Below are positions 5,201-62,697 of a DNA stretch of 64,000 nucleotides, one piece after another. The first letter of the stretch is position 1, and the number at the start of each line of letters is the position of its first letter. Origin of the DNA: Eutreptiella sp. 'Long Island Sound 2002' (taxonomy: Eukaryota > Euglenozoa > Euglenophyceae > Eutreptiales > Eutreptiaceae); assembly GCA_964036045.1 (NCBI GenBank), contig OZ038378.1, positions 146,409,767 to 146,473,766 on the forward strand, given 5' to 3'. A program made the position numbers and the translations under genes. The notes under the pieces were generated by a model. The model saw only the letters and a list, made by a program, of their open reading frames with translations. It was not told the DNA's origin and made no database searches.

Positions 5201-8200
5201 GATAAAGGGCTGGAGCCGGGATGGGGCTTGGGGGAAAGGCGGATCTGAGGCTGGTGTCCTGGTAGCGCCAGAGCTGGGTCGGGGTAGAGCCAGTGCAGTG
5301 GGCAGGGGTCCAGCATATGGAAGGGGCCGCCACGCACAGAAGTGGCACCACCGCCTTTTGTGGGCGCTGCTGAGGCGGCCGTGCCCCCCCACCCCCACCC
5401 CCCTCCTTCCAGTGGCCACCAGAGGTGCATCCATGTGGGATGGTCGGCCGATATGCAGAGTTGTCGGGGACGCCGTTGTGCTCCCATGGGGGGCCTGTGA
5501 GCCACCGGACCCACCCCCCCAGCCGAGAGTGAGGGGGATTGACCAACGTGCTCTGCATCAGAAAGCACACAACAATGGCACAACAAGGCTCCAGGGTACC
5601 GCAACATACACACCCCAAAATGATCGCCCAGCGCGCTGATCGTTTCGACGTATGTGCCACGGGGGGATTATTTCAAAAAAAAATTATATTGCCTTCGGCA
5701 GTGCACCTCGAAGAGAGGCTGACAGTCAGCCAATCAGTCAGTTAGACAGGCCAGCAGTCAGTCAGACAGAAACACACACTTTGGGTTTTGGTTGGCAGAC
5801 ACGGGTCCAAACAGTGAGAAGAACAATTGGTCTGAGAATTGGCAGTGGCCCAATGGTAATGCCGGCGGCCGACAATTTTTTGGTCGGCTTCGAACCCCGG
5901 TGCGGCCAATACGGCAGCGGCGTCGCGGCCGGCGTCCACCGACCAGGATTTGAACCACCGACCTGTAAATACGGCCTAAAACATGCTTTACATACCATGG
6001 ATGGTCATATTGTGTGGTCACAATATCAAAAAAATTAGTTTCGAAAACTTCGATTTTTGAGCTGCCCAAGGTGAAAAACTGCATTAGCAGGTGGTGTACC
6101 AATCCCTTGGCAGACCCCCCCCCCCCTGCGGCCAATACCCAAATAGGGTGAAAAACACGTAAATACGGCCTAAGACATGCTTTACATACCTTGGATGATC
6201 ATTTTAGGTGATCACAATATCAAAAAAACAAGTTTCGAAAACTTCGATTTTTGAGCTGCCTAGGGTGAAAAACTGCATAAGCAGGTTGTGTACCAATCCC
6301 TTGGGAGACCCCCCCCCCCACCCCCGACCTAATAGACATGCTTTACATAGCTTGGATGGTCATATTGTGTGGTCACAATATCAAAAAAACAAGTTTTGAC
6401 CACTTCGATTTTTGAGCTGCCTAGGGTGAAAAACTGCATAAGTAGGTTGTGTACCAATCCCTTGGGAGCCCCCCCCCCCCCCCCCCGTGCGGCCAATACC
6501 CAAATACGGTGAAAACCATGGTAAATACGGCCTAAGACATGCTTTACATACCTTGGAGATCATTTTAGGTGATCACAATATCAAAAAAACAAGTTTCGAA
6601 AACTTCGATTTTTGAGCTGCCTAGGGTGAAAAACTGCATAAGCAGGTTGTGTACCAATCCCTTGGGAGCCCCCCCCCCCACGGAGGAAGCCATATGCTAT
6701 TGCACGCGCACAAGAGGCGATCAGCACAAAAAGCGTAGGAAGAAAATGGCTCGTCGGTGGCCTAAAAGACCATAGGTACCTTCCTGTCACAAAGAGTGCA
6801 ACACGAAGACAACCTGTGGGCGGGACACCGACAAATGTGCAGGGGTTATGCAGCGGTATGCACCAGATGCTCTCGCTATGCACTGACCCCTGAATCTGCC
6901 ATATATCATCAAGAGTTCAGGTGTGTAATGACAGCAATGGAAATACAGAGACCCCCTCCCCCCGGGCCGGTGGCCCCACTGGAATGGGTTGTGAAGGATC
7001 TCCGCGGGGCGTGTGTGCCGATAGTATAGGAAAATCGTAGCACCAATCGGCACACGTCTCACTACAAGGTCCTGTGTGTGGTACATGCCATGAGGCATAC
7101 GCCGAACTGGACCATAAACTATGACTCTACAGCCACTTACGCAGCCGATAAAAAATAGTGTCCCGTGTTGATGGGAGGGAACATAAAATATGCACTATCC
7201 AAGCTTGTGTGGCTTCGACGTCCCATGGCGTACGGCTTACAATGCCGGGCACGGCGGAGTGCAGCGCGCGCAGAACGGCCGACCGAATGTAGCTTGAGAT
7301 CAACGAGATCCGGCACCAAGCTGTGATGCTGATCAAAATCCCAAGCCAGGAGTGCAAAAATGGTTGTACATTGAGGACAGCGCTCAAAATGATGCTGGCA
7401 ATGTGTTTATAGTCTCGGGCCCATGGGCTTTGCATCGTGACCGAATACTTGAGGCACCAGGTGTTCGTAAGACCAGATGGCTATGTGTATATGAGTGGTG
7501 GGTGTGCGTTGTGAAGATGAACTGTGATGCCCATGGCAGTGACGCTGGTGGTCATGCATTTTTCAGTGCAGGTGTGTACAGTATCTGTGATGCATGGGCA
7601 TAGGGCTGGTAGATCCCAGATTTCTGTGAGAGTGTCTGTGACGTGTTTCATGGTGGATTTTGCTGTGGGTCCGCGTGCTGCCACCATCACGTTGTCTCGA
7701 AACTGCAACAGTGAAATCGTATTTCCTGTGGGTGTGAGCCATAGTGGGCGTCCTCTTTCTGAGAACTGGAGTCTCCCCAACCGGCGCATGAGGTCAACCC
7801 GTTGCTTTACACCCCATACTGAACGGAGGTCTGCTGCTTGTGCGCTGAAGGGGCCGCCCATGGGTATCGTACCTTGTCTATCCCAAACCCGACCGGACGC
7901 TTGTGTAAATGTGTCAGTCATTAGGGAAAAGTAAACTAGGTTTTCGAGGTCTGCGTGTGCCATAAGGAAGAATCGGTCTGATGTGCCTTTGCCCGCCCTG
8001 TCCAAATTTTTATTGTCGCGGTGGATGCTCCATACCGTGTCCGCTGCGGACCAGCGTCGTCCTTTCTGAAGCCAAGTGACTTGCCTCGGAGAGGGATGTC
8101 ATTACATCTTGAGGCTTTATATTGTTAAACTGACCTAAGCAGATTGCCTCTGCAATGACCTGGCATTCCCATTCAGATAGGCCGTGAAACCAATCATTCA

Positions 8201-33852: not shown

Positions 33853-33888
33853 TATGGGATGCAGCGTTCTAGGGCGTGGTGCGGAACC
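33853..33888 (+). repeat. left 36-base terminal inverted repeat
   Basis: TATGGGATGCAGCGTTCTAG and 16 further bases, identical to the reverse complement of 38099-38134. It is preceded by CATCA. Confidence 0.92.
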
Positions 33889-34039
33889 ACCCCAATTTTG
33901 GGTGTTGTTAATATGGTTGGAACCCGGAATTTCACATGTTACATGGGTGCACTATGATGCAACAATGTGCCTTCCATGTTTCGTTTGCTCGATATTGCCC
34001 GTTTTGCACTTTTTGCGATTTGATCTTTGTGTGCTCTAA

Positions 34040-34192
34040 CTAGTTATCACGGGGTTAGAACGGGGTTAGAGCACTAGTTATCGCGTGGGTTATCGCGCGA
34101 TAACCTAGTTATCGCGGGGGTTATCGCGGGGGTTATCGCGCGATAACCTAGTTATCGCGTGGGTTATCGCGTGGGTTATCGCGCTTCATTTT
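34040..34192. repeat. left subterminal TTATCGCG/GTTAGAGC array
   Basis: Nested copies of GGTTATCGCG and its inverse CGCGATAACC form palindromes, mixed with GGTTAGAAC and GTTAGAGC words. They are the likely binding sites of the transposase and lie immediately before the first gene. Confidence 0.85.
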
Positions 34193-34241
34193 ATGTTTCC
34201 CCTTTTCGCTTTAGCTCTCAAAGCTTTCATATTCTTTGATA

Positions 34242-36191
34242 ATGGCCCTTGCTGCTGCCCACGCTTGGTGCGAGCACCATCAAAAGCTCCTTGGGGTCCG
34301 TCGCCTTGGCGGTACTGAGGGGTTTACGATGGGTGATGCCAATGTGAGGCGCCCTGTGGCGACCCGCTTTGAACATGGTGTGGACTTTGGACTCCTTGTC
34401 CATAAGTCCCCCTTCATGGCGGACAACCGAGACCCCCTGGTTCTCAGCAACTACATCTTCGAGTTGCTAGAGGTAAATCCAGGGGTTGCTGGATTTTTGA
34501 TCCAGCTTCATCCGGACGATGTGGACGCGGTGGTGGAGTCCGTCACCGCCCATGCCGAGAAGGGTGCGGGGACGAAGACGACCCTCTATGTGGGTCAGGA
34601 GGAGGAGGAGGAGGAAGTGGAGGAGGAGGAGGAGGATGCGGGGGGGGTGGGGGCTGGGGGGAGGAAGGAGAAGCCCCACAACCCCCTCATGATTAGTGTC
34701 CAGAAGGTAAGGATCCGACCTGGTAAGGGGAAGGGGCAGTCGGATGGTTGGTTCCCCCAACCCCTCACCCACAACACCCGCCGGGTCTGCACTGACGACC
34801 CCGAAAACAAGCTCCCCATGCACTCCCTTTGCCCCACAAGGGAGTGGGAGCGTGAGTGGTATGGGGTCACCACTCCCAACATTGTTTCGGGGCAGGGGGT
34901 GATTCTTTTTCCATTTGGGGCAACACCCCCCCTTATTGGGGAGGCGGAGGAGGTGGTTGCCGCCGAGCCCTTGGGGGCCTTTAATAGGGACCCCAATGAC
35001 CTTGTGCTCACCGTGGGGGGGAAGCTGGTGGTCAACCACCTCCTGGAGCACGATTTTTTGAGTGATGTGCAGCTCCAAAGTCTTTTGGATGATTTGGATA
35101 GGGTGCCTCTCTCAGAGAAGGCACCCATTTTCAATGAGAACCCCCCCATTGTCGGCAGGCCCCAAGATTCTGGGACCCGCCGTACATTGTATGGCAACTA
35201 TGGGGGTGCCAACCACCACAGGCACAACCCCCACAAGCTCCATGATCTGCCAGTCCTCAAAAGGGTGGCAGATCGTGTGCTTGAGACGGCGAAGAAGACT
35301 GTGGTGGGGGGGGTTGGATGGAGCTGCACCATCCTTGACATGGCCGAAATTTCGAGCTATGACCACACCCCCCAGCACCTCCATCGCGACGCCCCCCCCT
35401 ACACCATTCCTGAAGGCACATTGATTGTCAATTGCCTTATTATGCTAACCCATAATCATGAGGAGGAGGATGGGTCACATTTTCTTTTTGTGCCCTCCAG
35501 CAGTTCGGGGTTCCCTGACCCTTGGGTGGAGAGGGCTGTGCCATTCAAGAGGGGCACTGCCTTTTTTTTTAATGCCCTTGATGTACACCGGGGGTCGGGG
35601 ATTCCCAAGGCCTCCCCCACGGGGGTGTCCCACCCCCGCCTCATGGCATTTTTTGCCATTGAGCTTACCCAAGGGGGGAATCTTCGATTCCCCAACCTGC
35701 ACGTGACCCAGTCCATTAAGAGGCCCCAGCTGGGGGCACGTGCTGGCCGGGTGGCCAGGACAGTCCAGTGTGATGGGGCGGTTAGGTGTAGGGGGAAGGT
35801 GGTAGCCAATTGCTACGGATGCAATCGGCTGATTTTGTGCACCGCCCACAAAGATGGCCTTTGTGTGCCATGCCAGGAGGGGGAGGAGGTGGAGGGGGGG
35901 GAGGAGGAGGAGGTGGTGGTGGACCCCAATGGGGTCAGCATTGAGCAATCTGCTCAGTGCTTGCTCCCGGTGGGAACAACCACCGGGCATTTTTTGTTGT
36001 CGGGGTGGGGGATTGGGAGGGAGGTGATTGCCCCCCTCACTTCAAACTTCAAAACCCTCCCTCATTTCGCGCCCAGGGCCTCTTATTCTTCATGGACAAT
36101 GCTGTCAATGAGGCCCTGCGGGCTCTCAACACAGCCAACCTGCGGCGGTACACCGATCTGCAGTGCCCCAAGGCCCGGCGGCGGCGTTTGA
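34242..36191 (+). CDS. 2-oxoglutarate/Fe(II)-dependent dioxygenase, transposon-borne
   Basis: A 649-residue protein with a double-stranded beta-helix dioxygenase core. The Fe(II) ligands H381, D383 (HRD) and H449 (DVHRG) and the 2-oxoglutarate-binding R466 are all in place and properly spaced. An acidic Glu run lies near residues 120-130. A Cys-rich module at about 509-544 (C-x6-C, C-x2-C, C-x2-H, C-x2-C pattern) looks like a zinc-binding unit, followed by a second acidic stretch. The family includes prolyl hydroxylases, AlkB and TET/JBP enzymes; the sequence does not decide which. On a transposon, oxidation of methylated DNA or of chromatin proteins is an attractive inference. The start is ATG at 34242, shortly after the subterminal array. 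The last 33 codons overlap the next gene in another frame, so an intron near 35950-36076 joining the two genes into one protein is possible. Confidence 0.78.
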   Translation: MALAAAHAWCEHHQKLLGVRRLGGTEGFTMGDANVRRPVATRFEHGVDFGLLVHKSPFMADNRDPLVLSNYIFELLEVNPGVAGFLIQLHPDDVDAVVESVTAHAEKGAGTKTTLYVGQEEEEEEVEEEEEDAGGVGAGGRKEKPHNPLMISVQKVRIRPGKGKGQSDGWFPQPLTHNTRRVCTDDPENKLPMHSLCPTREWEREWYGVTTPNIVSGQGVILFPFGATPPLIGEAEEVVAAEPLGAFNRDPNDLVLTVGGKLVVNHLLEHDFLSDVQLQSLLDDLDRVPLSEKAPIFNENPPIVGRPQDSGTRRTLYGNYGGANHHRHNPHKLHDLPVLKRVADRVLETAKKTVVGGVGWSCTILDMAEISSYDHTPQHLHRDAPPYTIPEGTLIVNCLIMLTHNHEEEDGSHFLFVPSSSSGFPDPWVERAVPFKRGTAFFFNALDVHRGSGIPKASPTGVSHPRLMAFFAIELTQGGNLRFPNLHVTQSIKRPQLGARAGRVARTVQCDGAVRCRGKVVANCYGCNRLILCTAHKDGLCVPCQEGEEVEGGEEEEVVVDPNGVSIEQSAQCLLPVGTTTGHFLLSGWGIGREVIAPLTSNFKTLPHFAPRASYSSWTMLSMRPCGLSTQPTCGGTPICSAPRPGGGV

Positions 36192-37750
36192 AGGCGGTTC
36201 AGCGGCTGGTGCGAGTTCTATTGGGTGACCCAGACGTCGTGTGTGGCACCAACACCAAAGGCGAAGTTTGTTTAAGTGGTGGGGCGTGCACTGCCCTGTC
36301 TGGCCCACTTGGCGGCCATCTTGCATTAACAGCTCAGGAGCATGAGGCCCTGAGCATGCTACGCATGGCATGCAGCATGCATCTCTCCCAACGGGCCCTT
36401 TTGCGAATGCCCCGCCGTTGCACACAACGGGACCTAAGGAACGTTCGGCAACGGATCATGCCCTACTTTCCCCAAACCACCATTGTAAAGTCTACCACAG
36501 GCCGCAATAGGGCAGCTGCCCATGTGCCTTTGCAATCAATTGTGCAAAATGCAATATCTATGGCCCGAGTTATTGGGAAACCCCCCCCTAGTGGCGTTGC
36601 CATTATTGTTATTTCAGTTGATGCGACTTCCTTGTGGAAGGCATCCTCTACCCGTGCGGATGTATGGGTTAATGTATGGGGGGGGGCAAAATATGCTTCG
36701 AAGGTGAAGCTATGGGCCTCATGGTTTTGCATGGATGGCGGGGATGAACAGGCTTTTTTGAGAAGCCTGGACATCTCCGCCAACCTCAACCAAGAGGTGA
36801 GGGATGTGGAAGAGGACGTTGTCCTCTTTCAAAACCAATTTTTGACTTGCACTGTCATTTTGACAGGGGATGGGAAGGGGATGCAAGCAATGGGGGGGGC
36901 TGGGTCTAAGTGTTGGTTGTGCAAAGACCCCAATGGGATTGTTGAGCAAAGGGGGGTGGAGTCCACCTCAAGATGGGGGTCATTCTTGAGAAGTGTGACC
37001 CCTGATAGGCGGCCGGGGGACTACCAACATGCAGCATGCCGCATCCTAAACGGCATTGCAAAGCGCATTGAGACCACCCTTCAGGCCCTCCCCCCTGGTA
37101 CCCCTGGTAAGGCCCAAGCTCTTGCAGCTTTGCAGGCCTTCAAACAAGCCCTCAAGGATGAGACCTCAGGCATCCCTCTTAGGGAACGCCTCCCTTCGGC
37201 CTCGAGGGCCACAGAAAAAGATTTCGATCTAACAAGCACCAAAGTTTTCCTAACCTCCCCCCCCTTCCAAAGGCAATTTGTGGAATGCCTCAAAGAGCAT
37301 GTCCCCACGGTGAGGACCCCTGGGGGACCTATGTTATGGGTTGTTGTGCATGTCATGGTGAAATGCATTGAGGGTTTGTATGAGCTTTGGAGGGTGAGGG
37401 AGTTGTACACTCTAACCCAAGTGGAACGCCACCGTGCGTTGACCACAAAATTTTCAAAAGCGCGGGGAGACTCAGGTTGGTCCCCCACCAGGTGGATCCA
37501 TTGGTGCTTGGCACATTCCACCTTTTTTGCCGAGAAATGGAGGAACATTTTTCAGTTTTCCTCCATCCCAACGGAGTATCGGCATGGGCCTTACAAGAGG
37601 AGGCTCAAAAATTGTTTTAAGGGTTGGTCCTTGGTGAGGCCAAGTATGTCCCTCCGCCACATGCACCATTGCATGTCCATGAACGCCCTGGAGCAAGGGC
37701 TTTTGGGGCTGGAGGCAGCCAAGGCCTCAGACATTGATGACTTTGTATGA
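36092..37750 (+). CDS. transposase-like protein of unassigned family
   Basis: A 552-residue protein from ATG 36092 to TGA, lying between the dioxygenase gene and the right subterminal repeats. It has an RNase H-like pattern: a strand ending in Asp (VISVDATS, D177), a second Asp after a strand (ILTGDGKGM, D260) followed by a zinc-type CWLC pair, and a basic C-terminal block with AEKWRNIF (E481) and RHGPYKRRLKN. A DDE/D transposase is inferred from these and from the position between inverted repeats. The N-terminal third is basic and could bind DNA. An in-frame extension upstream to 35957 lacks ATG. I considered KDZ and Plavaka-type transposases but the motifs do not match what I know of them. 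Confidence 0.6.
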   Translation: MDNAVNEALRALNTANLRRYTDLQCPKARRRRLKAVQRLVRVLLGDPDVVCGTNTKGEVCLSGGACTALSGPLGGHLALTAQEHEALSMLRMACSMHLSQRALLRMPRRCTQRDLRNVRQRIMPYFPQTTIVKSTTGRNRAAAHVPLQSIVQNAISMARVIGKPPPSGVAIIVISVDATSLWKASSTRADVWVNVWGGAKYASKVKLWASWFCMDGGDEQAFLRSLDISANLNQEVRDVEEDVVLFQNQFLTCTVILTGDGKGMQAMGGAGSKCWLCKDPNGIVEQRGVESTSRWGSFLRSVTPDRRPGDYQHAACRILNGIAKRIETTLQALPPGTPGKAQALAALQAFKQALKDETSGIPLRERLPSASRATEKDFDLTSTKVFLTSPPFQRQFVECLKEHVPTVRTPGGPMLWVVVHVMVKCIEGLYELWRVRELYTLTQVERHRALTTKFSKARGDSGWSPTRWIHWCLAHSTFFAEKWRNIFQFSSIPTEYRHGPYKRRLKNCFKGWSLVRPSMSLRHMHHCMSMNALEQGLLGLEAAKASDIDDFV

Positions 37751-37816
37751 AAAAAGACCATACATGCTTTGTGCCAAGTGTTTTCTGTTGTTTGTCCTAG
37801 TGAGGGATGGAGGAGG

Positions 37817-37944
37817 GGTGCGCGATAACTACCCGCGATAACTACGCGATAACTGAGTTATCGCGCGATAACTAGCGCGATAACTAGTTAGAGCAGGGTG
37901 CTCTAACTGCGTTCTAACTCTGTTCTAACTGTGCTCTAACTCTT
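37817..37944. repeat. right subterminal CGCGATAAC/GCTCTAAC array
   Basis: Mirror of the left array: repeated GCGATAACT, one GTTATCGCGCGATAAC palindrome, then four GTTCTAACT/GCTCTAACT words. It starts about 65 bases after the transposase stop. Confidence 0.85.
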
Positions 37945-38098
37945 TGACCCCCCCCCCCAAAAACCACCCCTACAATGAGGGTTATGTGGGGAAAGAAAGG
38001 GGATGGGGGGTTTTTGAGGGTGCTGAATCCATTTTTTTAGGTGGTTTGCCCCAAAATTAAGGGTAGGTGGGTGTTCCAGAAATTGCGTTCTAACTAGG

Positions 38099-38134
38099 GG
38101 TTCCGCACCACGCCCTAGAACGCTGCATCCCATA
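38099..38134 (-). repeat. right 36-base terminal inverted repeat
   Basis: Exact inverse of 33853-33888, followed by GATACG. Confidence 0.92.
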
Positions 38135-38711: not shown

Positions 38712-39007
38712 GACACCGTCAGACACCGTGGTAAATCCTATGTGTAGACAATCCGCCGGAGGAGTGGTGCTCGTTATGTGTTTGTCACGACGTGTTTGCA
38801 CGATACGATCACACTCCAACAGGTCATGGCCATTTGAGAATTTTCTTTGCCTTGCTCCGCGTGTTGTCGTTGTACCGAAGCTCAATTTTAGCCGTACCGT
38901 TCACGGCGTTTACGAGTTGAGATAAATCCGCCGCACCCATCACATACAAGAACACATCTTGCACTCCACCGAATACCTTGCTCTATCGACTACTACCACT
39001 CCCTACG

Positions 39008-39160
39008 ATGACGATCACATGCTTTGCTTGCGGCCAAGAAGGCCATATGGCTCGGAATTGTCCTACAAAAACACCGAATGATTCTTCTTCGTCCACTAAG
39101 ACAACCGGTACATGGCCCGATGGCCGTCCAAAATACTATTGTCCCTACCACTATACAAAA
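39008..39160 (+). pseudogene. gag-like N-terminal part, cut by an insertion
   Basis: From ATG 39008 the frame encodes a CCHC zinc knuckle (CFACGQEGHMARNC) within the first 20 residues, a Ser/Thr-rich linker, then YYCPYHYTK. The matching HHPDEC half of what looks like a second zinc-binding site (C-x2-H...H-x4-C) lies beyond the insertion, in the same frame, at about 40298. The insertion between 39160 and 40286 is a multiple of three but contains a stop (TAA at 39440). Confidence 0.7.
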
Positions 39161-39286
39161 ATTGGGCCTATGACCCGGATATCTGCGCTGTATCCCGGGG
39201 CATATGCCCCGGATATCGACCGTAGGGAGATATCCGGGGCATATGCCCCGGGATACAGCGCAGATATCCGGGTCATTAGGCCCAAT
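39161..39286. repeat. 57-base near-perfect palindrome
   Basis: Arms of 57 and 58 bases differ by one inserted A. The loop is GACCGTAGGGA-like at 39218-39228. It would extrude as a cruciform or form a stable RNA hairpin. Confidence 0.9.
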
Positions 39287-39604
39287 TCTTATATCCGGGG
39301 CATTAGGGCCCGAGGATATCCGCAGATATCCGGGGCATATGACCCGGGATCCTTGCGCGCAACCCTTCCCTCGCCCTTGATGCCTCAACACTTCAAGTGG
39401 AACAAATCCGAGACACACTTTCTCTCATGGTGCTACAAGTAAGCTCTCTACAAACATGGAATATAGGCACATATAGATGGTCTATTGGGGGCCAATCATG
39501 TCTCTGACACAAGATTCGCAGGCCCAGGAACCAAACTTCGGAGGAAACCTGAGCTTGGCACAAGACATATGGTACACAGCATGGCAACTGTCACACGTGA
39601 CCGA

Positions 39605-40063
39605 TCATTGGCCACCAATTGCATTCTTCTTAATGGCATAATCACAACGGTAACATTGCATTTCCTTTTTCACCTGCACGTCCTTTTTCACCTTTTTTTG
39701 GGGTTGCTCTTCAAATGCAGCCTGGGCAAAAGGAGATGGAATACTGGACAAATCTTGACTTACTGGGGCCTTGGCAGGTGTTGCTGGGGCAGCCCAGGCA
39801 CGAGAACGGTACATCTCACGTTCATATACCATGCTCTCTTTCTCATTGAGCACATATATAGAAGGTTCTTTCTCACTCAATTGTGTCAACGGGAAGGTGG
39901 CATACTCCTCCTCCGCTGTTAGATCAATGACGATCTTCGGAGAGGATGGAGAAGGTGTCCGATCCTTCCGTTTCTTCTCTACTTTGACTGGACTGAGGCT
40001 AACACACACGACCTCACGCTTTGGTGACAAAGTGGCACTATTAGAGGCCTTCTCTTCCTTAGC
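39605..40063 (-). other. exon-like open frame with a SUMO-interaction-type motif
   Basis: The minus-strand frame is open for about 153 codons without an ATG. It encodes a Lys/Pro-rich peptide with KIVIDLTAEEE, the pattern of a SUMO-interacting motif followed by acids, then KKVKKDVQVKKE and a CYRCDYA pair before its stop. The composition looks protein-like. It could be a captured exon or the remnant of the inserted element's own gene. I do not recognise a family. Confidence 0.35.
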
Positions 40064-40149
40064 TCATTGGAACCACCTCGGAAAGGCGGTTTCATTGATT
40101 GGTCACAACCCTAGGTCATTCTGTTGTTCCCGGTGATTAATCTACAAAT

Positions 40150-40284
40150 TTGATGATTTGCTACATGCCCCAGGGATATCAGCAGATATCCGGGGCATAT
40201 GACCCAGGATATCACCGCTGCTGTATCCCGGGTCATATGCCCCGGATATCTGCGGATATCCTCGGGCCCATGCCCCGGATATAA
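40150..40284. repeat. right-end palindromic repeat of the insertion
   Basis: Two inverted blocks of GATATC.GC(A/G)GATATCCGGGGCATATG type, whose outer part (40225-40284) is the inverse of 39289-39350 apart from a CATTAGGG/CATGGG difference. Confidence 0.8.
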
Positions 40285-40285
40285 A

Positions 40286-41188
40286 AAGGAAGTCGCGCAT
40301 CATCCGGACGAATGCAAGTTCAAGGGACAGCCTTCCCATTCCCATAGAAGTTCAACCACGGTGGAACAAGTTACCGACGTGCTCATTCGTGCATTGCCCC
40401 AATTTAAGGAATCGGTTATCAAGGCGACCGTCCCTAGCGGCGTAGAAGTCATCTTCCCGCGCGACACGATCCATGATGACGTGAAAAAATTGCAAGCTGC
40501 TCTACCAGAAGTACGGATAGCCTACCCAGTGGATACCAGGATTATCGTGGCGTGCTCATGCCCTACGACACGACAAGCCATTCAGGACCAATTGAAAAAT
40601 GCAGTGGATGCTGGTAAGCCGATCCAAACCAAGCAGTTCACCAATGCTACCTCTACCACGGGCCCGTTAGACTTCTCTCAACCTACAACACCCGGTATTG
40701 TGTTTGGTGCCGCGCCGGCAGCGGCGGCACAACAAAACACGCAGCCCACGACCCCGATCTCTCCACCACCTCTCGAGGGTGACGTACCTATGGCACCATC
40801 GATGGACGATTCGGTACGCACCGAGTTCAACCGCATTGATGGCGAAATTGCTGGTATTCGCAACGATATTTCTGGCCTAAACTCCAAAATTGACGGCTTC
40901 GGAAGCCAATTGGCCGAGGCGATGAAAAAACCTGTGCTGGCTGCACAGCGACCTAAAGATGCTTCCTGTCCCGATGTCGTACCGCAGAGCTACGTGTGGA
41001 CTGTGACACGGCGTTCTACTTTTGAAAAATGGCAACCACTCAAAACGATGGTCACAGCCGTGGCCGACGGAACCTTCCGCGGACTTGCTTGGTCAGCAGA
41101 AGGAATCCCACTTACGGATTGGACTATTGAAGCGCCGTTCCAGTGCGCCATGTCCGAGGACACTGCCCGCAACGTGGCGGCGCAGTAG
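40286..41188 (+). CDS. gag-like protein, second part with coiled coil
   Basis: The frame resumes with KEVAHHPDECKFKG, giving the other half of the zinc site. It continues through a mixed alpha/beta stretch (VKKLQAALPEVRIAY), an Ala/Pro/Gln linker, and a heptad-repeat coiled coil (FNRIDGEIAGIRNDISGLNS) that probably drives assembly. It ends at TAG (41186-41188), after which the same frame stays open for another 1.6 kb. A nucleic-acid-binding structural role is inferred from the zinc sites and the coiled coil. Confidence 0.65.
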   Translation, partial: KEVAHHPDECKFKGQPSHSHRSSTTVEQVTDVLIRALPQFKESVIKATVPSGVEVIFPRDTIHDDVKKLQAALPEVRIAYPVDTRIIVACSCPTTRQAIQDQLKNAVDAGKPIQTKQFTNATSTTGPLDFSQPTTPGIVFGAAPAAAAQQNTQPTTPISPPPLEGDVPMAPSMDDSVRTEFNRIDGEIAGIRNDISGLNSKIDGFGSQLAEAMKKPVLAAQRPKDASCPDVVPQSYVWTVTRRSTFEKWQPLKTMVTAVADGTFRGLAWSAEGIPLTDWTIEAPFQCAMSEDTARNVAAQ

Positions 41189-42829
41189 GAACCCGACCCT
41201 GCTCAATGCGTGGAGACCCAGGACGATACACCAGAACTACATGTTGGCCATCGTGACATCCTCCGCTGGACGTGCGGTTGTGCTATGCTTGACCCCCATC
41301 CCTTTGCTGCACCAGATGAACAGTACCGAAAGGTCTATGTTCTCGCATGCAACTGGCGGATACCCTCATGCCGTTATACGTGTGACTCCTGGAACTCTAT
41401 GCTGGAATTACCAGAGGCTCATCAACAGCTGAGTTCGCTCATTGCTGATCTGCGCGCACAGCGCAATTTTGCACAAGCAGACGCGGTGCACAGTTTTGTA
41501 GGAGTGATTCGCCTGAAGTCTGCCCTCAACATGCGACTCATGGACCTACTGCAGCAACGTGAGGCTCTTGCACACGACGGCACGGAGCACACACTACCAT
41601 GTTTCCAATTGCTTGCTGACTGTGAGTCCTCACCCCGTCCTGTTAGGGCGCTGGCATATGCCGTGGAAAAGTTTGCAGCCCTCAAAGACCTGTGGTGCTA
41701 CTTTACCTCGGCCAAAAGCGTACGACGCTGGGATACCACCTCTCCTATGCACGTGCTACATTTCCTGCAATGGGCAGCACATTGGCTTGATGCCCAGCGT
41801 TATTATCTAAATGTGAAGCTCACCTGCGCGCGCGCCACAGACACACACTTACAGCCTCAGAGCACATTCTCGGTGTGCGAACACACGATCACGCAGTTTG
41901 TTGCCCAGGCCCCGACCCGCTGTCGTGTCGACCGGCTCACCCACGGCCACCACAGCAGACCACCCAGAGCCGTGCCATACAAACTGCGCATGAGACTGCT
42001 GGCGCAAGCAGCTAAAGTGTGGGGCATTGACACCATGGTTAACTGGCAGCCCACGGCTGCAATACCTTTGCGACACCACGTGTCACCCTACCATCACTAT
42101 TTGCAGCTGGGTGCACACCACGACATAGCCACGCTCGCGACAGATGTTCGCCGCCTCAGTGCGATGTGGCTGCTTGATGATACTCCCTCCCCCCCTGGGC
42201 ACTCAACCTGGGAACAGCAGCAACTTGTGCACCTTGCTGCCTTGCTCAACTCTACCCATCCCTGCCGCCTAGTGGTGTTGGTCATCAGCACCCATGGCAT
42301 GTATGTGCCTGTCACCACACTGTCCGCACAGCACTGCTCATACACCATTTCACGTGGGGTAACCAAGCAGAACACACGGTGGGACATGCTGTGTATCCAA
42401 AACCAACCGGCTGCGGACCTGTGGCCTGTGGCACACGCCACTGTGGTTGCACGCGTTGGGCCTTATCTGAAACGATGGGGCCTTACGCTGTGGCCTACAC
42501 CAGCACACACTGCATGCTCCACACTGCCGCACGATGTGGCCTCCCGCCTTGAGGTGCAGCACTTACCACAGTGCGGGAAAATGGTGTTCTGGACAGTCTG
42601 GAAAAGAGAGTGCTCTGTGCGAGAGCAGGCGCTCCGCACACGAAATTGGCGCCAGACAGTCCTGGAGTCCTGCCTCCGAGTGAATCAGGTCCTACACCTG
42701 GCCCCATGTACACACCTGCGTCGACTGTATGACATACTACACATGCCAACACACAATCATCTCACTGCCGTTGGCACCTGGTTGTACGGTGCCTACAGCG
42801 TGGCGGACGGCAGAATTTATTTCGGCTAG
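41189..42829 (+). CDS. unknown retroelement region ending in the first half of a GIY-YIG nuclease
   Basis: This frame continues directly after TAG 41186-41188 and shows no suitable ATG at its beginning, so it is probably made by read-through or as part of a fusion. The first ~500 residues, rich in His, Trp and Cys, match nothing I recognise. The last ~20 residues are LYGAYSVADGRIYFG, the GIY and YIG strands of a GIY-YIG nuclease, cut by TAG at 42827-42829. The missing residue is the position after YIG that is commonly Gln in this family (YIGQT). Confidence 0.6.
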   Translation, partial: EPDPAQCVETQDDTPELHVGHRDILRWTCGCAMLDPHPFAAPDEQYRKVYVLACNWRIPSCRYTCDSWNSMLELPEAHQQLSSLIADLRAQRNFAQADAVHSFVGVIRLKSALNMRLMDLLQQREALAHDGTEHTLPCFQLLADCESSPRPVRALAYAVEKFAALKDLWCYFTSAKSVRRWDTTSPMHVLHFLQWAAHWLDAQRYYLNVKLTCARATDTHLQPQSTFSVCEHTITQFVAQAPTRCRVDRLTHGHHSRPPRAVPYKLRMRLLAQAAKVWGIDTMVNWQPTAAIPLRHHVSPYHHYLQLGAHHDIATLATDVRRLSAMWLLDDTPSPPGHSTWEQQQLVHLAALLNSTHPCRLVVLVISTHGMYVPVTTLSAQHCSYTISRGVTKQNTRWDMLCIQNQPAADLWPVAHATVVARVGPYLKRWGLTLWPTPAHTACSTLPHDVASRLEVQHLPQCGKMVFWTVWKRECSVREQALRTRNWRQTVLESCLRVNQVLHLAPCTHLRRLYDILHMPTHNHLTAVGTWLYGAYSVADGRIYFG

Positions 42830-45800
42830 ACTGGCGCCATTCAAGGCGAAACATCAGTGGGAAACCGATTCCTCCAGGAGGTTGCAGATGCACGCGCGTG
42901 GCACAAACTGTATGGCTCCAAAGGGGTCAAGGGGCCCACATACCTACATACCATGCATACCACGGGAACACACAACTGGGTCGTGGTGCTTATCCGTCCA
43001 ACCCCCCGCGCACAAGCTACACGAGGGGAGCAGCAACTGATTGCAGAGTTCCCTAACAACCTCAACGACCGTAAATCACGGCGCAAACCTTACATGCGTT
43101 GGCTCGTGCGATCTGGCTTGCACAAGCAACTGACCGAATCTGCACTGACTGATCATGGCCGCTGGCAACAGTACCTAACTGCGGGACGGATCACACTACA
43201 CCCCTTGGATGCACTCCGCATCCTGGTTGAGGCGAAACGTGCACTTCCGCCTGTCAAATTTTCCCCATTACAAACCCGACTCCTGGCATATTGGAAGGCA
43301 CACGCGCATTTCGCACTCCCCAGATCCATAACTCTGCATGTGCCGTTTGTTACAAAGACTGAAAGACTCCAACTACGCAAGGCCTGCGCTGAGTTCTTCC
43401 GCGACACCCCGTACCCTAGGGCCCTTGGGGCCTACCTGGCTGCAGTGCTGGGTATACCCCTCACCATCCCACCCAAGATGCTACGTGTTTTTTGCAAAGA
43501 CCGACTCGTTCACAGCTCACAGCACTACCTGCAGGCTGCACAGGACACTGAGCGATGCGGATGTGTGAAAGACCTACAGGCTACACACTGTGAGGGTGCC
43601 TGCTTGTTCAAGAAGGACACACTGGTGTCTCAGTTCGGTCCGCGCTATCAGGTCGTGCTCAGTGCGCAAAACAACTACACGACCATACCCTCTCGCTGGA
43701 AGCTACACCAGGAGTTATCGTCATCGCTGAACGCTATCCGAGAGAAGCTACCGAAAATCCGGATTTTCCCCTTTCGACGGCTGGCCGCCCGTATACACGA
43801 TATTACCTCGGCCATGATGCACGGGCATGCCAACCTCCAGCGTACCCTGCCCCCCCAGAACCATATCAAGTCCTTTCATAAGGAACACCCCGAATGGGTG
43901 CCTGTGCGCCTCGACAAAAACACGCACTGCTTTGCACTAGTCTGCTACACCTTTTTCTGTCAGCTAGTAGTAAAGAGCCTGAACGCCGGGAACTACCGCC
44001 TGTTTCACACCTTCCCCTCTCCTACCCATTTGTATGCCACATACCTCGTGTATTTCTACACGTTGGTATTATGTGTTCCCGTGCTCCGGAAACACGTTGC
44101 ATTTGCGCACATGCGCACCCGTCTGTCGCAGATGTCCCCACCGCTGAAAGGTTATCGCTTCTCTACCTACCAGGGGACCCCCCCCCCTTCGACAGATGAT
44201 AAGGAGGATTGGGAATCCTTCAGACAGTCCGTCTTTGCACACGCAACAGCCGAAGCGTCCCGTGCTATTACCCTCTCCCCCTTTCAGCCGAACACAGGGC
44301 CACCTCCTGACGCGACCCCGTCGAAGAAGAAAAAATGGACGGTACCCGGGGTCATCCTCTCCCTGAAAAATAAGAGTCTCACGACCTCGCAGCGCCTACA
44401 ATTAGAGCTGGCGAAGCTCAGGGAAATTTTTACCCAAGCAAGCCATCCCCTGGGCACCTTGCTCCGCAAGGGCGGCAGGTGTCTCTCGCTCCTCCTCCGA
44501 GTATACACCCACACCTTCGTTAGCCTAGAAATCCTGGACCAGGCACACCTGGTGCAGGGCTTCCTGCGCCCTGCCAGGGAAGAGTACAAGCGTCTAGGAA
44601 TCCCAGTCGGTGGGTTTGAGCTGGACATAGATCGCATGTTTCCAAGCATCATTCGCGACCAGGTACCGTCCGCATGGCAGTCGCTGAGCGACCGATATGA
44701 TGCCCTAAATCCCCTCCGACGGGGTGAATCAGCCAGGTTTGTATCACTGGCCAAGGGCAACGCCCGAGACATGGACTGTCTTGGTATGAAAGACCAGAAG
44801 TATTACGACACCTTCAGCATATCTGAGGTACACGACCTTATGAAGGTCGATCTTTTTCTGAACTCCTTTTTTCAATTAGGACATGAATTATGGGAGCAGT
44901 TCTCAGGTGTCGCGATAGGAGGAGCCATGTCAGCACAGAATGCAGACGCCTATCTGGTGTCTATTGAAAGCCTGGTCCCATGGGGACAGTTCCTGCCCAC
45001 GCACGTAAAACTTGGCCGATTCCGGGATAATATTTTTTGCATCTGCCCTCTCCACGAAATTCCATTCTGGATGGCCAAGATCAAGTGTGTACCGAGCGAA
45101 CTGTACCGACTAGATCTGTCTGTAGAACAGGCTGGCAGAAGCCTGTGTTTCCTTGAAGTTCAGATAGATTGCCACGATGAGCACATTGAGTGGGGTATGA
45201 AAAATAAAGTGCTCCTCTCCCAGCTGACTGATTGCCCACCTACGCTGCGATACCCATCTGTACATGAGCCGCATGCGTCGCAGACCGTGCACGGGATCGC
45301 CAGCGCTGTAGCACAAAAATCTCTGGAGCTCGCCACGACAGTGGCGCATCGGGTAAATAATTTCCGGCAAGCCTACTGGGAATTTTCGTCCAAAAACTAC
45401 CCTAAGTCCTGGTGGGAAGGAGTCCTCCGCACAGCTTTCGAAAAACAACAACCGCCATACGTAGGCCAGCCACCGCTGCACTGGTCTATGGTCAGGGATA
45501 ACTGGACTTGGGAGTGCCCCGTACCCCCTGGGTACGCATGGCTGCACCCCACCTCTACCCTCCCTACACTCGATCTCAGGGCTGAGACGCCCAGTCTGCA
45601 GGCTTTCCAGCGCACGTCCGCTGGGCACCATCTCATTCCAATTAAAACATTTCCTTTGCCATACACAGATCGCACACAGCAGGTTGTCCTGCAGGTGCTG
45701 CCCACACCAGAGCCACCCAGAAAACGCCAGAAAACAATATCGTTGCCCACACCACCTCAGCAATCCACAGGTCGCATCACCAGAAGTCGCCAAGCACCCA

Positions 45801-45877
45801 TCTTCCTGTATGATATGACACCGCAACGGAGGCCACGTAGAGGGTCTGTACGTCAACGACAGCCCCGCACCCCGTGA
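42830..45877 (+). CDS. GIY-YIG (second half) plus reverse transcriptase with FRDN active site
   Basis: The frame continues after TAG with TGAIQ, then the GIY-YIG catalytic Arg (NRFLQEV, 42866), the metal-binding Glu (RGEQQLIAEF, 43028) and the following Asn pair. RT motifs lie in the second half: A (FELDIDRMFPSI, D at 44624), B (SGVAIGGAMSAQNAD, about 44906-44950) and C (RFRDNIF, FRDN at 45020-45031), where YxDD is expected. The C-terminal tail is basic (PRKRQK, RRPRRGSVRQRQ). The length, about 1015 residues, and motif order suit a full polymerase. TGA at 45875 lies inside the right terminal repeat. Confidence 0.78.
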   Translation, partial: TGAIQGETSVGNRFLQEVADARAWHKLYGSKGVKGPTYLHTMHTTGTHNWVVVLIRPTPRAQATRGEQQLIAEFPNNLNDRKSRRKPYMRWLVRSGLHKQLTESALTDHGRWQQYLTAGRITLHPLDALRILVEAKRALPPVKFSPLQTRLLAYWKAHAHFALPRSITLHVPFVTKTERLQLRKACAEFFRDTPYPRALGAYLAAVLGIPLTIPPKMLRVFCKDRLVHSSQHYLQAAQDTERCGCVKDLQATHCEGACLFKKDTLVSQFGPRYQVVLSAQNNYTTIPSRWKLHQELSSSLNAIREKLPKIRIFPFRRLAARIHDITSAMMHGHANLQRTLPPQNHIKSFHKEHPEWVPVRLDKNTHCFALVCYTFFCQLVVKSLNAGNYRLFHTFPSPTHLYATYLVYFYTLVLCVPVLRKHVAFAHMRTRLSQMSPPLKGYRFSTYQGTPPPSTDDKEDWESFRQSVFAHATAEASRAITLSPFQPNTGPPPDATPSKKKKWTVPGVILSLKNKSLTTSQRLQLELAKLREIFTQASHPLGTLLRKGGRCLSLLLRVYTHTFVSLEILDQAHLVQGFLRPAREEYKRLGIPVGGFELDIDRMFPSIIRDQVPSAWQSLSDRYDALNPLRRGESARFVSLAKGNARDMDCLGMKDQKYYDTFSISEVHDLMKVDLFLNSFFQLGHELWEQFSGVAIGGAMSAQNADAYLVSIESLVPWGQFLPTHVKLGRFRDNIFCICPLHEIPFWMAKIKCVPSELYRLDLSVEQAGRSLCFLEVQIDCHDEHIEWGMKNKVLLSQLTDCPPTLRYPSVHEPHASQTVHGIASAVAQKSLELATTVAHRVNNFRQAYWEFSSKNYPKSWWEGVLRTAFEKQQPPYVGQPPLHWSMVRDNWTWECPVPPGYAWLHPTSTLPTLDLRAETPSLQAFQRTSAGHHLIPIKTFPLPYTDRTQQVVLQVLPTPEPPRKRQKTISLPTPPQQSTGRITRSRQAPIFLYDMTPQRRPRRGSVRQRQPRTP

Positions 45878-55200: not shown

Positions 55201-55574
55201 TCGGAGTTTTTTTTTTGTATTTTTGATAAGTTTTGGTGCCCCATTTCAGTGGTGGAGCACGAGGTTTATGGCAGTGAGGCAGCGTCGCCTTTGTGATGGG
55301 GCCAAGGGATCGAAGCATCCGTCCACCGCATGTCTGGGCCAGTTGCGCTGTCCACGTGTGATTTCCACGTACCTTCCATCAGATCTGCTCAGCGGACCAT
55401 TTTGGCCAAAGCCTAGATGCCAGCAGCCCGGCATCATGTGCCTGCCTCACCTGATACACCCAAGCTCTGAGGATGCAGCATCAAGATGGCACAAAGCGCT
55501 CCCCCCCCTCCCCCTTCCTCCCTCGCTGAACCCCTCAGCCCGGCACCCCAGGTCCTGACCCAATGGGAAAAATA
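52204..55574. other. gene-free stretch including an AT-rich island
   Basis: No gene is supported. 53410-54720 is clearly richer in A/T than anything else in the window, has no C/G runs, and holds one 88-codon frame (54263-54529) without a known domain. 55100-55560 leads up to the glycosyltransferase gene. Confidence 0.5.
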
Positions 55575-55790
55575 ATGACCGTGTCACCAGCCATGTCAAC
55601 CGCGTCACCAACCGCGTCAACCGTATCAAGTGTGCCACGACCGGTGTCATCCGTGTCATGCGTGTCATGCGTGTCAACCGTGCCAACCGCATCACCAACC
55701 CAGTCACCAACCGCGTCAACCGTATCAAGTGTGTCGCGACCGGTGTCATCCGTGTCAACCGTGCCAACCGTGTCACGACCCGGTGGGTAT
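55575..55790 (+). repeat. minisatellite of 9-base CCGYGTCA-type units
   Basis: Some twenty imperfect units of ACCGTGTCA/ACCGCGTCA, with larger 60-75-base duplications. The array lies just upstream of the glycosyltransferase start and, if translated, would give a Val/Ser/Thr-rich leader. I take it as untranslated. Confidence 0.8.
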
Positions 55791-55877
55791 GTTTGCATGC
55801 GACCTGTCAATTCCTCGTCTCCTCATTCCGCCCTTTCCGTGCTCAATACAGAGAAGTGCTCCTGCCCTGCACACACC

Positions 55878-57527
55878 ATGGGGTTGATGAAACATGGGAT
55901 GGTCGGCGCGATTCTCGTGGCCGTCTTTGCAATCAGCTTCAACACGATCATTCAGCGCCTCATCCGCAACATGACCCTCCCCGACGTGCCCGAGATGGTG
56001 CCGCCAGCATATCCTCCGTGCACTGACGAGGAGCTGGTTGACAAGGTGACCCTTGTTGTCACCGTCAAGGACACCTGCGGTCAGAGCAAGGACATCATCG
56101 AGAGGCTGGCAGACCTGTACCCGGCGGACATGAGGTTCATCTACGCGTACCCCGACATCCGGGGCTGTCGCGACATCGCGGTCGAGGAGTTCAGTACGAA
56201 GCTGTTCAACAACGTCACCATCGTGAAGATCGGCCGGGGCGACGCCCCAATCGTTGGCTTCCTGAAGGCGCAGCCCCACATCCGGACCGAGTACGCCGTG
56301 CTCATGCACAACGACGCCTACCCCATGGACCATCAGTTCGTGTGCGAGCTGTACCGCGCCCTCGAGGCCCACCCCAGGTACCCCATCGCCGCCCCCCAGA
56401 TCTACGAGGTCGGGGACTCCGGGATCTACGTCCCCCACGGCCACCACGAGAACCTGCACGTGCGCCCCACGTCCAGCGGCACGGGGCACCGCATCGACTA
56501 CGACCTCAGCCTCGACCTCCTGACGATGCGCACCCCCTCCGACTTCCGCTCGGCCGAGGGCCCGCAGGTGGACTTCCTCGAGGACCACGCCTTCTTCGCC
56601 CGCACCGCCGGCTTCGAGAAGCTGCTCGACAGCGGCGGGTCGTTCACGATGGAGTACATGGACATGATCCTGAACATGCGCTCGCGCAACACCTCCGCGT
56701 GGTACGTCCCGACGGCGCGCTGCGCCTTCGACGTCCAGCTCGACAAGATCGTGTGGCAGGACCTGCCGTACTTCGCGTACAAGCGCAGCGAGCAGATCGG
56801 GGACCAGGTGCGGCGGTACCTGACCAACAAGTGGAGCATCGAGTTCCCGAACACCGGGATCTGGAACTACGTCCGCTACGTCTACCTGTCGAACATCATC
56901 CTGAGCGCCGAGATGCTGCCCGCGACGTGGGAGGACCAGGCGGCGCTGTTCTACACGTGGTTCGAGAGCCTGGGGTTCAACCGCTACAACGGCGAGCTGC
57001 TCCCCGACTTCATCGAGGCGCCGCGGCCTGGGGTGGTCAACGTCTCGCGGCTGGTCGGGGGCGGCCTTCCCGCGGACGTGCCCAGGGACCGGGTGCCACC
57101 GTCGGCCGCCACCGACTTCCTGCCGTTCCAGTCCAAGAAGTCGATGTTCGTGCCGGAGATCGCCTTCAAGGACCCCCACAGCGCGCTCGGGGTCCGCACG
57201 CAGTCCTGCGACGCGGCGGACCCGTCGTCCTGGGAATCCTGTGGGCTCGTGGTCGAGGACGAGGGCGAGTGCCGGTGCTGGAACTACGTCGTCCCGTACA
57301 ACTTGGAGTGGGCGCAGGGCATCACGCGGTTCTTGGACGTCCTCAAGATTCCCTCGCGGGCGTTCATGTACGCGCAGATGCGCTACTTCCCCCGGAAGAT
57401 CGACAAGAAAAGCGTGGACGTCATGTGCGACGGCCACCAGAGGGACTGCAGCCTTGAGGCGGAGTTCACGCGCTCGTCGCGGATCCTTAAGTGGTCGTGG
57501 TTTGGGCAGCCTGTCTGGCAGGTTTGA
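55878..57527 (+). CDS. type II membrane GT-A glycosyltransferase
   Basis: A 549-residue single-exon protein, markedly GC-rich in third positions compared with its flanks. Residues about 6-25 (GAILVAVFAISFNTIIQ) form a signal anchor, giving a Golgi-type type II topology. A GT2/GT-A fold follows: KVTLVVTVKDTC at the first strand, a nucleotide-binding strand with ENI-type acids, and MHNDAYPM (N145, D146) in place of a canonical DxD. EDHAFFAR (E235, D236) gives the likely catalytic acid block. The lumenal C-terminal third has paired cysteines (CRCWNY, CDGHQRDC). The ATG at 55878 is chosen because it places the anchor at the N-terminus; the frame is open further upstream only through the minisatellite. 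Substrate and linkage are unknown. TGA stop. Confidence 0.78.
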   Translation: MGLMKHGMVGAILVAVFAISFNTIIQRLIRNMTLPDVPEMVPPAYPPCTDEELVDKVTLVVTVKDTCGQSKDIIERLADLYPADMRFIYAYPDIRGCRDIAVEEFSTKLFNNVTIVKIGRGDAPIVGFLKAQPHIRTEYAVLMHNDAYPMDHQFVCELYRALEAHPRYPIAAPQIYEVGDSGIYVPHGHHENLHVRPTSSGTGHRIDYDLSLDLLTMRTPSDFRSAEGPQVDFLEDHAFFARTAGFEKLLDSGGSFTMEYMDMILNMRSRNTSAWYVPTARCAFDVQLDKIVWQDLPYFAYKRSEQIGDQVRRYLTNKWSIEFPNTGIWNYVRYVYLSNIILSAEMLPATWEDQAALFYTWFESLGFNRYNGELLPDFIEAPRPGVVNVSRLVGGGLPADVPRDRVPPSAATDFLPFQSKKSMFVPEIAFKDPHSALGVRTQSCDAADPSSWESCGLVVEDEGECRCWNYVVPYNLEWAQGITRFLDVLKIPSRAFMYAQMRYFPRKIDKKSVDVMCDGHQRDCSLEAEFTRSSRILKWSWFGQPVWQV

Positions 57528-61890: not shown

Positions 61891-62007
61891 ATGGTCTCCA
61901 GCAGGTGCGCTTGCAAATCACGGGGAATAAACTCAGACAACACCTCGCTCTCTGCAGTTCCGCTCCCAGATGTAGTTTGTGGCCCGTGGCCCCTTTTTTT
62001 TTTGCTG

Positions 62008-62697
62008 ATGGGGCACCCAAACACCTTCACATTCCTTGTTTTGCTGTTCCATCTTCTGCATGGCCCCGGCCTTGGCGCCCATGCCGGTGACCCGGTCATA
62101 GGCCGTGTCCTGGGATCACACATCCTCGTTGACCTCACCAGTGTCGCCAACACCACCCTCCTGAACAGTGCACCTGCTCTGGAGGACCTCTTCCGCTCAG
62201 CTGTTGACGCCGGGAACTTGACCCTGATCTCTGACGGCATCCGGTTCCACCAGTTCCATCCCATTGGGATCACGGGGGTGGTCCTTCTGGCGGAGTCGCA
62301 CATGAGCATCCACACCTGGCCCGAGCATGGCTCTGCAACCCTTGACATCTTCACGTGCGGTGATCACGCTTACCCTGAACTGGCAGTGGATGCGTTGCTG
62401 GCGGGGCTCCAGCCGCGCTACAAAACAATCACTCGACTTGCAAGGACCAATGGCTATGCTGGCTGGCTGGGGGTGCAGGCCCTCTGGGTGGTGTACGACG
62501 TGCTGCACTGCGTTGTGGAAGCGTTCGCTGTGGACACCGGCGGCCACATGTGCGGAATTGTTGTTTCAGGCTGGGGAATGGTGGTCGTTATGGTTGTGGG
62601 ATTGCTGCTGCTTGGAACGATGGGCGCTGCCCTCTGCGTGCGTCGGGGCCGGAGGGAGCAATTGGCGGCAGAGGCACACAAGCCCAAAGGTCAGTAA
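62008..62697 (+). CDS. membrane-anchored prokaryotic-type S-adenosylmethionine decarboxylase
   Basis: AdoMet decarboxylase makes decarboxylated AdoMet, the aminopropyl donor for spermidine and longer polyamines. This protein is of the small bacterial/archaeal (SpeH/SpeD) type: LGSHILVDL opens the domain. The self-cleavage site is AE|SHMSIHTWPEHG (E96/S97, Ser becoming the pyruvoyl group), with H102 and C117 (FTCG) at the +5 and +20 spacing of the family. Unusually, the 229-residue protein has a hydrophobic N-terminus (TFTFLVLLFHLLHG) that reads as a signal peptide, and a C-terminal membrane segment at about 180-200 (VVVMVVGLLLLGTMGAAL) followed by RRGRR. I choose ATG 62008 because it starts the signal peptide; ATG 61891 is in frame and would add 39 residues. 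The C-terminal half after residue ~150 is not part of the standard enzyme. TAA stop. Confidence 0.82.
   Translation: MGHPNTFTFLVLLFHLLHGPGLGAHAGDPVIGRVLGSHILVDLTSVANTTLLNSAPALEDLFRSAVDAGNLTLISDGIRFHQFHPIGITGVVLLAESHMSIHTWPEHGSATLDIFTCGDHAYPELAVDALLAGLQPRYKTITRLARTNGYAGWLGVQALWVVYDVLHCVVEAFAVDTGGHMCGIVVSGWGMVVVMVVGLLLLGTMGAALCVRRGRREQLAAEAHKPKGQ

Follow-up and report, generated by a model that had tools for sequence, protein, structure and literature searches.

We analyzed a 64,000-nucleotide stretch of the genome of the euglenid Eutreptiella sp. 'Long Island Sound 2002' (contig OZ038378.1, positions 146,409,767 to 146,473,766), hereafter called the window. It contains a DNA transposon in which an oxygenase-like gene, OX1, is located beside a predicted transposase gene, TP (Table 1). 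The element proper spans 33855-38132 (4278 bp) and is bounded at each end by a perfect terminal inverted repeat (TIR) of 34 bp. An earlier, sequence-only reading of the window described perfect inverted repeats of 36 bases. The inverted match between 33853-33888 and 38099-38134 is indeed 36/36, but it includes the TA of the target duplication. A 36-bp TIR was therefore rejected, two of its bases belonging to that duplication.

OX1 carries H381, D383, H449 and R466, each at the position given in the earlier reading. They form the motif of the 2-oxoglutarate (2OG)/Fe(II) oxygenase superfamily, with the HxD...H metal ligands and the 2OG-binding arginine, and OX1 is predicted to be such an oxygenase. 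The Cys-rich module reported in the same frame is also present, with Cys/His residues at positions 510, 516, 524, 527, 533, 536, 541 and 544. TP contains D177, D260, a CxxC motif (C274/C277), an Hx4H motif (H470/H475) and E495. The last is located 20 residues past H475, a spacing that we take to be that of RAG1. The arrangement is that of the CMCT clade, which comprises EnSpm/CACTA, Plavaka, ESTA, Transib and RAG1 and is defined in Kojima (2025; PMC12730594) by D, D and E, the second D being followed by C(2)C and H(3-4)H ahead of E. TP is a candidate member of this clade (CACTA/Plavaka/RAG1). Searches of Pfam, PDB, PHROGs and NCBIfam gave no useful match to TP.

Table 1. Features of the element in the window (window coordinates)
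Feature	Position	Strand	Remarks
Left target-site duplication, TA	33853..33854		2-bp duplication in 17/18 two-ended copies
Left TIR, 34 bp	33855..33888	+	starts TGGGATGCAGCG
Subterminal GTTATCGCG array upstream of the oxygenase gene	34077..34183	+	9-mers: 8 forward, 2 reverse
OX1, oxygenase-like open reading frame (ORF), 649 aa	34242..36191	+	family sequence to residue 600 (nt 36041)
OX1 residues	H381 35382, D383 35388, H449 35586, R466 35637; Cys/His module 35769-35873	+	
Deletion join	36041..36047		2832 bp of the complete element gone, 5-nt filler
TP, predicted DDE transposase, 552 aa	36092..37750	+	codons alone 36092-37747
TP residues	D177 36620, D260 36869, C274/C277 36911/36920, H470/H475 37499/37514, E495 37574	+	
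Inverted GTTATCGCG array by the right end	37821..37884	-	9-mers: 5 reverse, 1 forward
Right TIR, 34 bp	38099..38132	-	
Right target-site duplication, TA	38133..38134		

The earlier reading had proposed a search for other copies, and the source genome, of 2.28 Gb in 2205 contigs, contains many. Among the best 40 of 3319 candidates, which were scored, at least 39 further places match the first 2.19 kb of the window element at 99-100%. The copy set was composed of the window and 39 fetched places (40 sequences), 14 of them extended. Both ends are within reach in 18 of the 40 sequences (at most 6 mismatches per repeat). All of these except L017 are flanked by an exact 2-bp duplication. The 17 duplications (CC, TG, TA, TA, CA, CA, TC, AG, TT, AA, TA, CT, AT, AT, AG, TT, TA) have no fixed sequence; that of L028, which sits in an AT repeat, is uninformative. 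A TIR DNA transposon is marked by dispersed copies that end in inverted repeats and by a duplication of constant length, and both are seen here. Mean divergence from the majority sequence is 0.54-0.65% by gene, indicating that the burst is recent.

Copy lengths revealed that the window element is incomplete. Nine of the two-ended copies measure 7099-7111 bp, and the other nine 2824-6975 bp. Of the 7111 bp that make up the copy at C3 (L031+L050), 2832 bp are missing from the window copy, which has 5 nt of filler at the join. It is an internal deletion derivative of the 7.1-kb element. In the part gone are the codons for the C-terminal 108 residues of OX1 and two further genes, M1 and M2; the order in complete copies is OX1, M1 (a predicted coiled coil), M2 (possibly oxygenase-like) and TP. 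Beyond residue 600, the window OX1 continues with 49 residues foreign to the family sequence, whereas 27 of the 40 copies have an OX1 of 708-710 aa. Of the two genes that had been read as intact, TP is open over 552 aa, but OX1 has lost its family C-terminus, and its oxygenase function is probably lost with it. Full OX1 and full TP are found together in L012, L017, L022 and L045. Through a different internal deletion, L026 (C5:59120208-59124807) has a single 942-aa frame that leads from OX1 into the start of TP. L010 contains one 1413-bp piece twice.

M1 encodes a coiled-coil protein of 339 aa from the first Met (L020), or up to 446 codons from stop to stop (L035); its single Pfam match is ATG16, at 0.02. 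M2 encodes 187 aa from the first Met (L031), including FTGGEFWVE...FNTRALHAPLPWEGERW, and has no match in Pfam. It is possibly a second oxygenase-like protein. The start of TP was found in 17 copies, six with a 552-aa frame and one with 550 aa. In five of the other ten (L010, L016, L020, L026 and L031) the frame breaks at a shared poly-G tract and is left with 218 aa, which may reflect slippage, a sequencing error or a frameshift site.

The protein-database searches scored part of the candidates drawn (7997, 7991 and 5874). Among the matches scored, the two closest oxygenase clusters contain 220 and 491 sequences, and the closest transposase cluster 275. OX1 is followed by TP within one gene model in 15 of 92 database proteins, always in that order; such models are no proof of fused proteins.

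A second, distant family carries a similar set of genes. Its oxygenase, OX2, was found through database proteins P0035 and P0078 and is ~26% identical to OX1. It retains the HRD, the second histidine, the arginine and the Cys/His residues. Portions of the C-terminal region, the very region that is gone from the window OX1, are conserved as well. In the genome, the best 74 of 3401 candidate places were scored for OX2; of these, 55 are free of stops and 16 have an identical score. At one of the loci, on C17, the OX2 gene is interrupted by a first-family element (L044). Downstream of it are the OX2 C-terminus, a coiled-coil ORF, an M2 homologue and, past further ORFs and 3.7 kb, a transposase gene, TP2. 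The M2 homologue is 32% identical to M2 over 152 aa (E 1e-22), and both contain HxHxRD, GGE, FNxxAxH and PWxGE. TP and TP2 are 23% identical over 370 aa (E 8e-9), and D177, D260, C274, C277, H470, H475 and E495 of TP are all identical in TP2. For the second family, no ends were found.

Three of the four genes thus match between the families, at ~23-32% identity, and a single recent capture fails as an explanation. The similar gene order at C17 also disfavors chance capture as the main reading. Together with the copies, the TIRs and the 2-bp duplications, this order strongly supports the earlier proposal of a transposon in which oxygenase and transposase genes are neighbors. Also on C17 (48741801-48747000), L062 and L064 contain an ORF with a weak piggyBac-type match (DDE_Tnp_1_7, 0.0065), and the adjoining frame has another HRD motif (IPHRDFALSVKQ). 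This may be a different type of transposon with an oxygenase.

The genes of the element are preceded by arrays of a CpG-rich repeat. The GTTATCGCG 9-mer, counted on either strand, occurs 16 times within the window element and 0 times in the rest of the window (59,718 bases). The arrays of the complete element are located upstream of OX1 (189-329), M1 (2553-2712) and TP (4847-5006), and an inverted array is found by the 3' end (6801-6864). By eye, a CAG or TAG follows a pyrimidine-rich stretch just upstream of the coding starts of OX1, M1 and TP. A 26-mer that we take to be the Euglena spliced leader occurs in the source genome 2292+2415 = 4,707 times with at most 1 mismatch, and the reversed pattern 0+0 times. 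Trans-splicing of OX1, M1 and TP is plausible from these signals. An Rfam scan gave nothing at gathering score, and scans of viral contigs gave no relatives.

In our view there is about an even chance that the window contains a derivative of a four-gene transposon whose oxygenase would likely erase a silencing mark on its own DNA or chromatin, leaving the element expressed and mobile. Relief of silencing is taken as the most likely role because of the analogy with fungal TET+ transposons. The arrays upstream of OX1, the middle genes and TP, and inverted at the 3' end, would serve as promoters, protein-binding sites or both. The Cys/His module may direct OX1 to them, and OX1 would then oxidize the mark upstream of the genes. 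OX1 would act on a modified base, either 5-methylcytosine or a modified thymine, or, less likely, on a chromatin protein, and TP would cut and paste the element. A bolder version is tentative, and we lean against it. It holds that an old euglenid transposon lineage carries a two-oxygenase eraser kit, which pairs the zinc-module oxygenase with another oxygenase-like protein in which an HxHxRD motif is conserved. This kit would rewrite a DNA modification at the CpG-rich arrays upstream of the element's genes and, as an anti-silencing system, would have evolved independently of the fungal TET/JBP systems.

Several results weigh against the proposed eraser. The best Pfam profiles for OX1, PhyH (0.016) and 2OG-FeII_Oxy_3 (0.055), are both below cut-offs. 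The AlphaFold models of OX1 (mean pLDDT 30.4) and TP (38.6) are too poor for fold searches. M2 carries HxH at the place of the oxygenase HxD. The second-family order comes from one locus that is rearranged upstream and has other ORFs between the M2 homologue and TP2; the coiled-coil ORF there has weak coiled-coil profiles only and no tblastn match to M1. Within the burst, finally, OX1 variants shared by at least two copies number 28 nonsynonymous (N) and 17 synonymous (S), with omega ~0.62 and p 0.084.

The corresponding counts are 6 N and 15 S for TP (omega ~0.14, p 2e-5), 20/13 for M1 (omega ~0.61, p 0.115) and 10/5 for M2 (omega ~0.75, p 0.39), and singleton variants give 0.75-0.81 for all four genes alike. 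With variants in at least three copies, for which fewer TP copies were available, the counts are 14/9 for OX1 (p 0.15), 2/6 for M1 (p 0.008), 4/2 for M2 (p 0.52) and 3/7 for TP (p 0.004). Within the burst, TP is clearly under purifying selection; the signal for OX1 is not significant. The case for constraint on OX1 therefore rests on the deep comparison with OX2. The lack of significant constraint on OX1 within the burst would fit a passenger oxygenase, taken up once from the host and functionless for the element, and the window copy has lost the OX1 C-terminus yet keeps TP and its TIRs. We nevertheless consider a passenger very improbable: the second family, at ~23-32% identity, also has an oxygenase with the catalytic and Cys residues kept, and the OX1 frame is full in 27 of the 40 copies.

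The profile searches bear on what the oxygenase would act upon. TET/JBP is absent among the Pfam families listed to E 10 for OX1. Sequence searches of the PDB, those with TP included, gave a best E of 0.07, and a profile built from 30 OX1 and OX2 sequences matched FtmOx1, a PhyH-type 2OG dioxygenase, at 0.16-0.33. PE-type fungal TET/JBP proteins, as described in PMC12730594, match by HHpred or structure alone. The best weak profiles are instead PhyH and the P4H-like 2OG-FeII_Oxy_3, and the Cys/His module could be protein-binding as well as DNA-binding. They would suit an OX1 that modifies a protein (a histone, a repressor or the transposase) or RNA, not a DNA base, to the benefit of the element. 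The fungal precedents (PMC12730594) are TET/JBP DNA oxygenases, and we consider a protein or RNA substrate unlikely, though a serious alternative to erasure of a DNA mark.

A truncated family member directly abuts a copy in 6 of the 39 fetched loci (L010, L014, L018, L025, L040 and L044); L018 and L025 have a common junction and may be a single event. Together with the copy inside the OX2 gene, these loci indicate that the element often inserts into its kin. OX1 might write a modified base instead of erasing one, and this base would serve the transposase as a mark on the element or on its targets. JBP enzymes make base J, and Euglena makes base J, which would fit a writer. We regard this as distinctly improbable, since insertions into kin may merely reflect copy number, the target duplications have no sequence preference, and a TET/JBP profile is not among the families listed.

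Several other features are found in the window. Directly downstream of the element, 38978-45877 contains a zinc-knuckle ORF (CFACGQEGHMARNCPTK) and, after it, long ORFs at 41210-42829 and 42857-45877, perhaps a retroelement; the three ORFs scanned in this region have no Pfam match. Perfect inverted repeats of 24-48 bp, made of GATATCCGGGGCATATG-like units, are located at 39170-40270, and others of 73 and 173 bp at 2636-3554. An ORF at 61891-62697 has an S-adenosylmethionine decarboxylase domain (PF02675, 6.9e-30) and is flanked by hydrophobic stretches. A 654-aa ORF at 55563-57527 has a weak Glycos_transf_2 match (0.13).

Among the transposases described in PMC12730594, those of the CMCT clade share the residue pattern with TP, and the duplication of the element lies within their 2-5 bp range. 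TP has no detectable sequence match in Pfam or PDB, and the element ends in 5'-TGGGATG..CATCCCA-3', whereas the clade mostly has CA..TG. PlavakaA has a 2-bp duplication and 5'-TGT..ACA-3' ends, which the TG..CA ends of the element resemble. IS3EU has TIRs longer than 30 bp and termini of TAYGG..CCRTA, similar to TATGG..CCATA when the TA is counted here, but it duplicates 6 bp, against 2 bp here with the TA outside the element. ESTA, which duplicates TA only, was also rejected, TA accounting for 4 of the 17 duplications. The earlier reading doubted a KDZ transposase, and rightly: KDZ elements duplicate 8 bp (Zisupton, Dileera) or 7 bp (Kyakuja), and TP has the CxxC and Hx4H motifs and no KDZ features. 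OX1 resembles PhyH-type 2OG dioxygenases in its HxD...H...R arrangement and, weakly, in sequence (E 0.016 in Pfam, 0.16 with the PDB profile). It differs in scoring below cut-offs, in its 708 aa, in its Cys/His module and conserved C-terminal part, and in being transposon-borne.

The closest known systems are DNA transposons with TET/JBP dioxygenases in fungi (Kojima, 2025; PMC12730594), the sole report on oxygenase-bearing DNA transposons in the literature found, most subscription papers being outside reach. Relief of silencing is argued for them, and the author states that the function lacks experimental validation. They share TIRs, a dioxygenase gene beside the transposase gene and several families per genome with the element described here. 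The claim of an undescribed system therefore stands in part: oxygenase-bearing transposons were known, but host, gene set and, apparently, oxygenase class differ. The fungal elements encode TET/JBP enzymes, whereas the host here is a euglenid, the oxygenase has no TET/JBP profile listed, and two more genes, one for a coiled coil and one for another oxygenase-like protein, are present in complete copies. Within the literature found, the euglenid host, an oxygenase with no TET/JBP match, complete four-gene copies including the second oxygenase-like gene and the occurrence of a similar set in a second, deeply diverged family are new. The alga is culturable and offers many near-identical natural copies, some having the oxygenase and others lacking it, on which the anti-silencing idea is directly testable. 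Should the cassette that two distant families retain prove to be of a class other than TET/JBP, transposons would have taken up oxygenases repeatedly.
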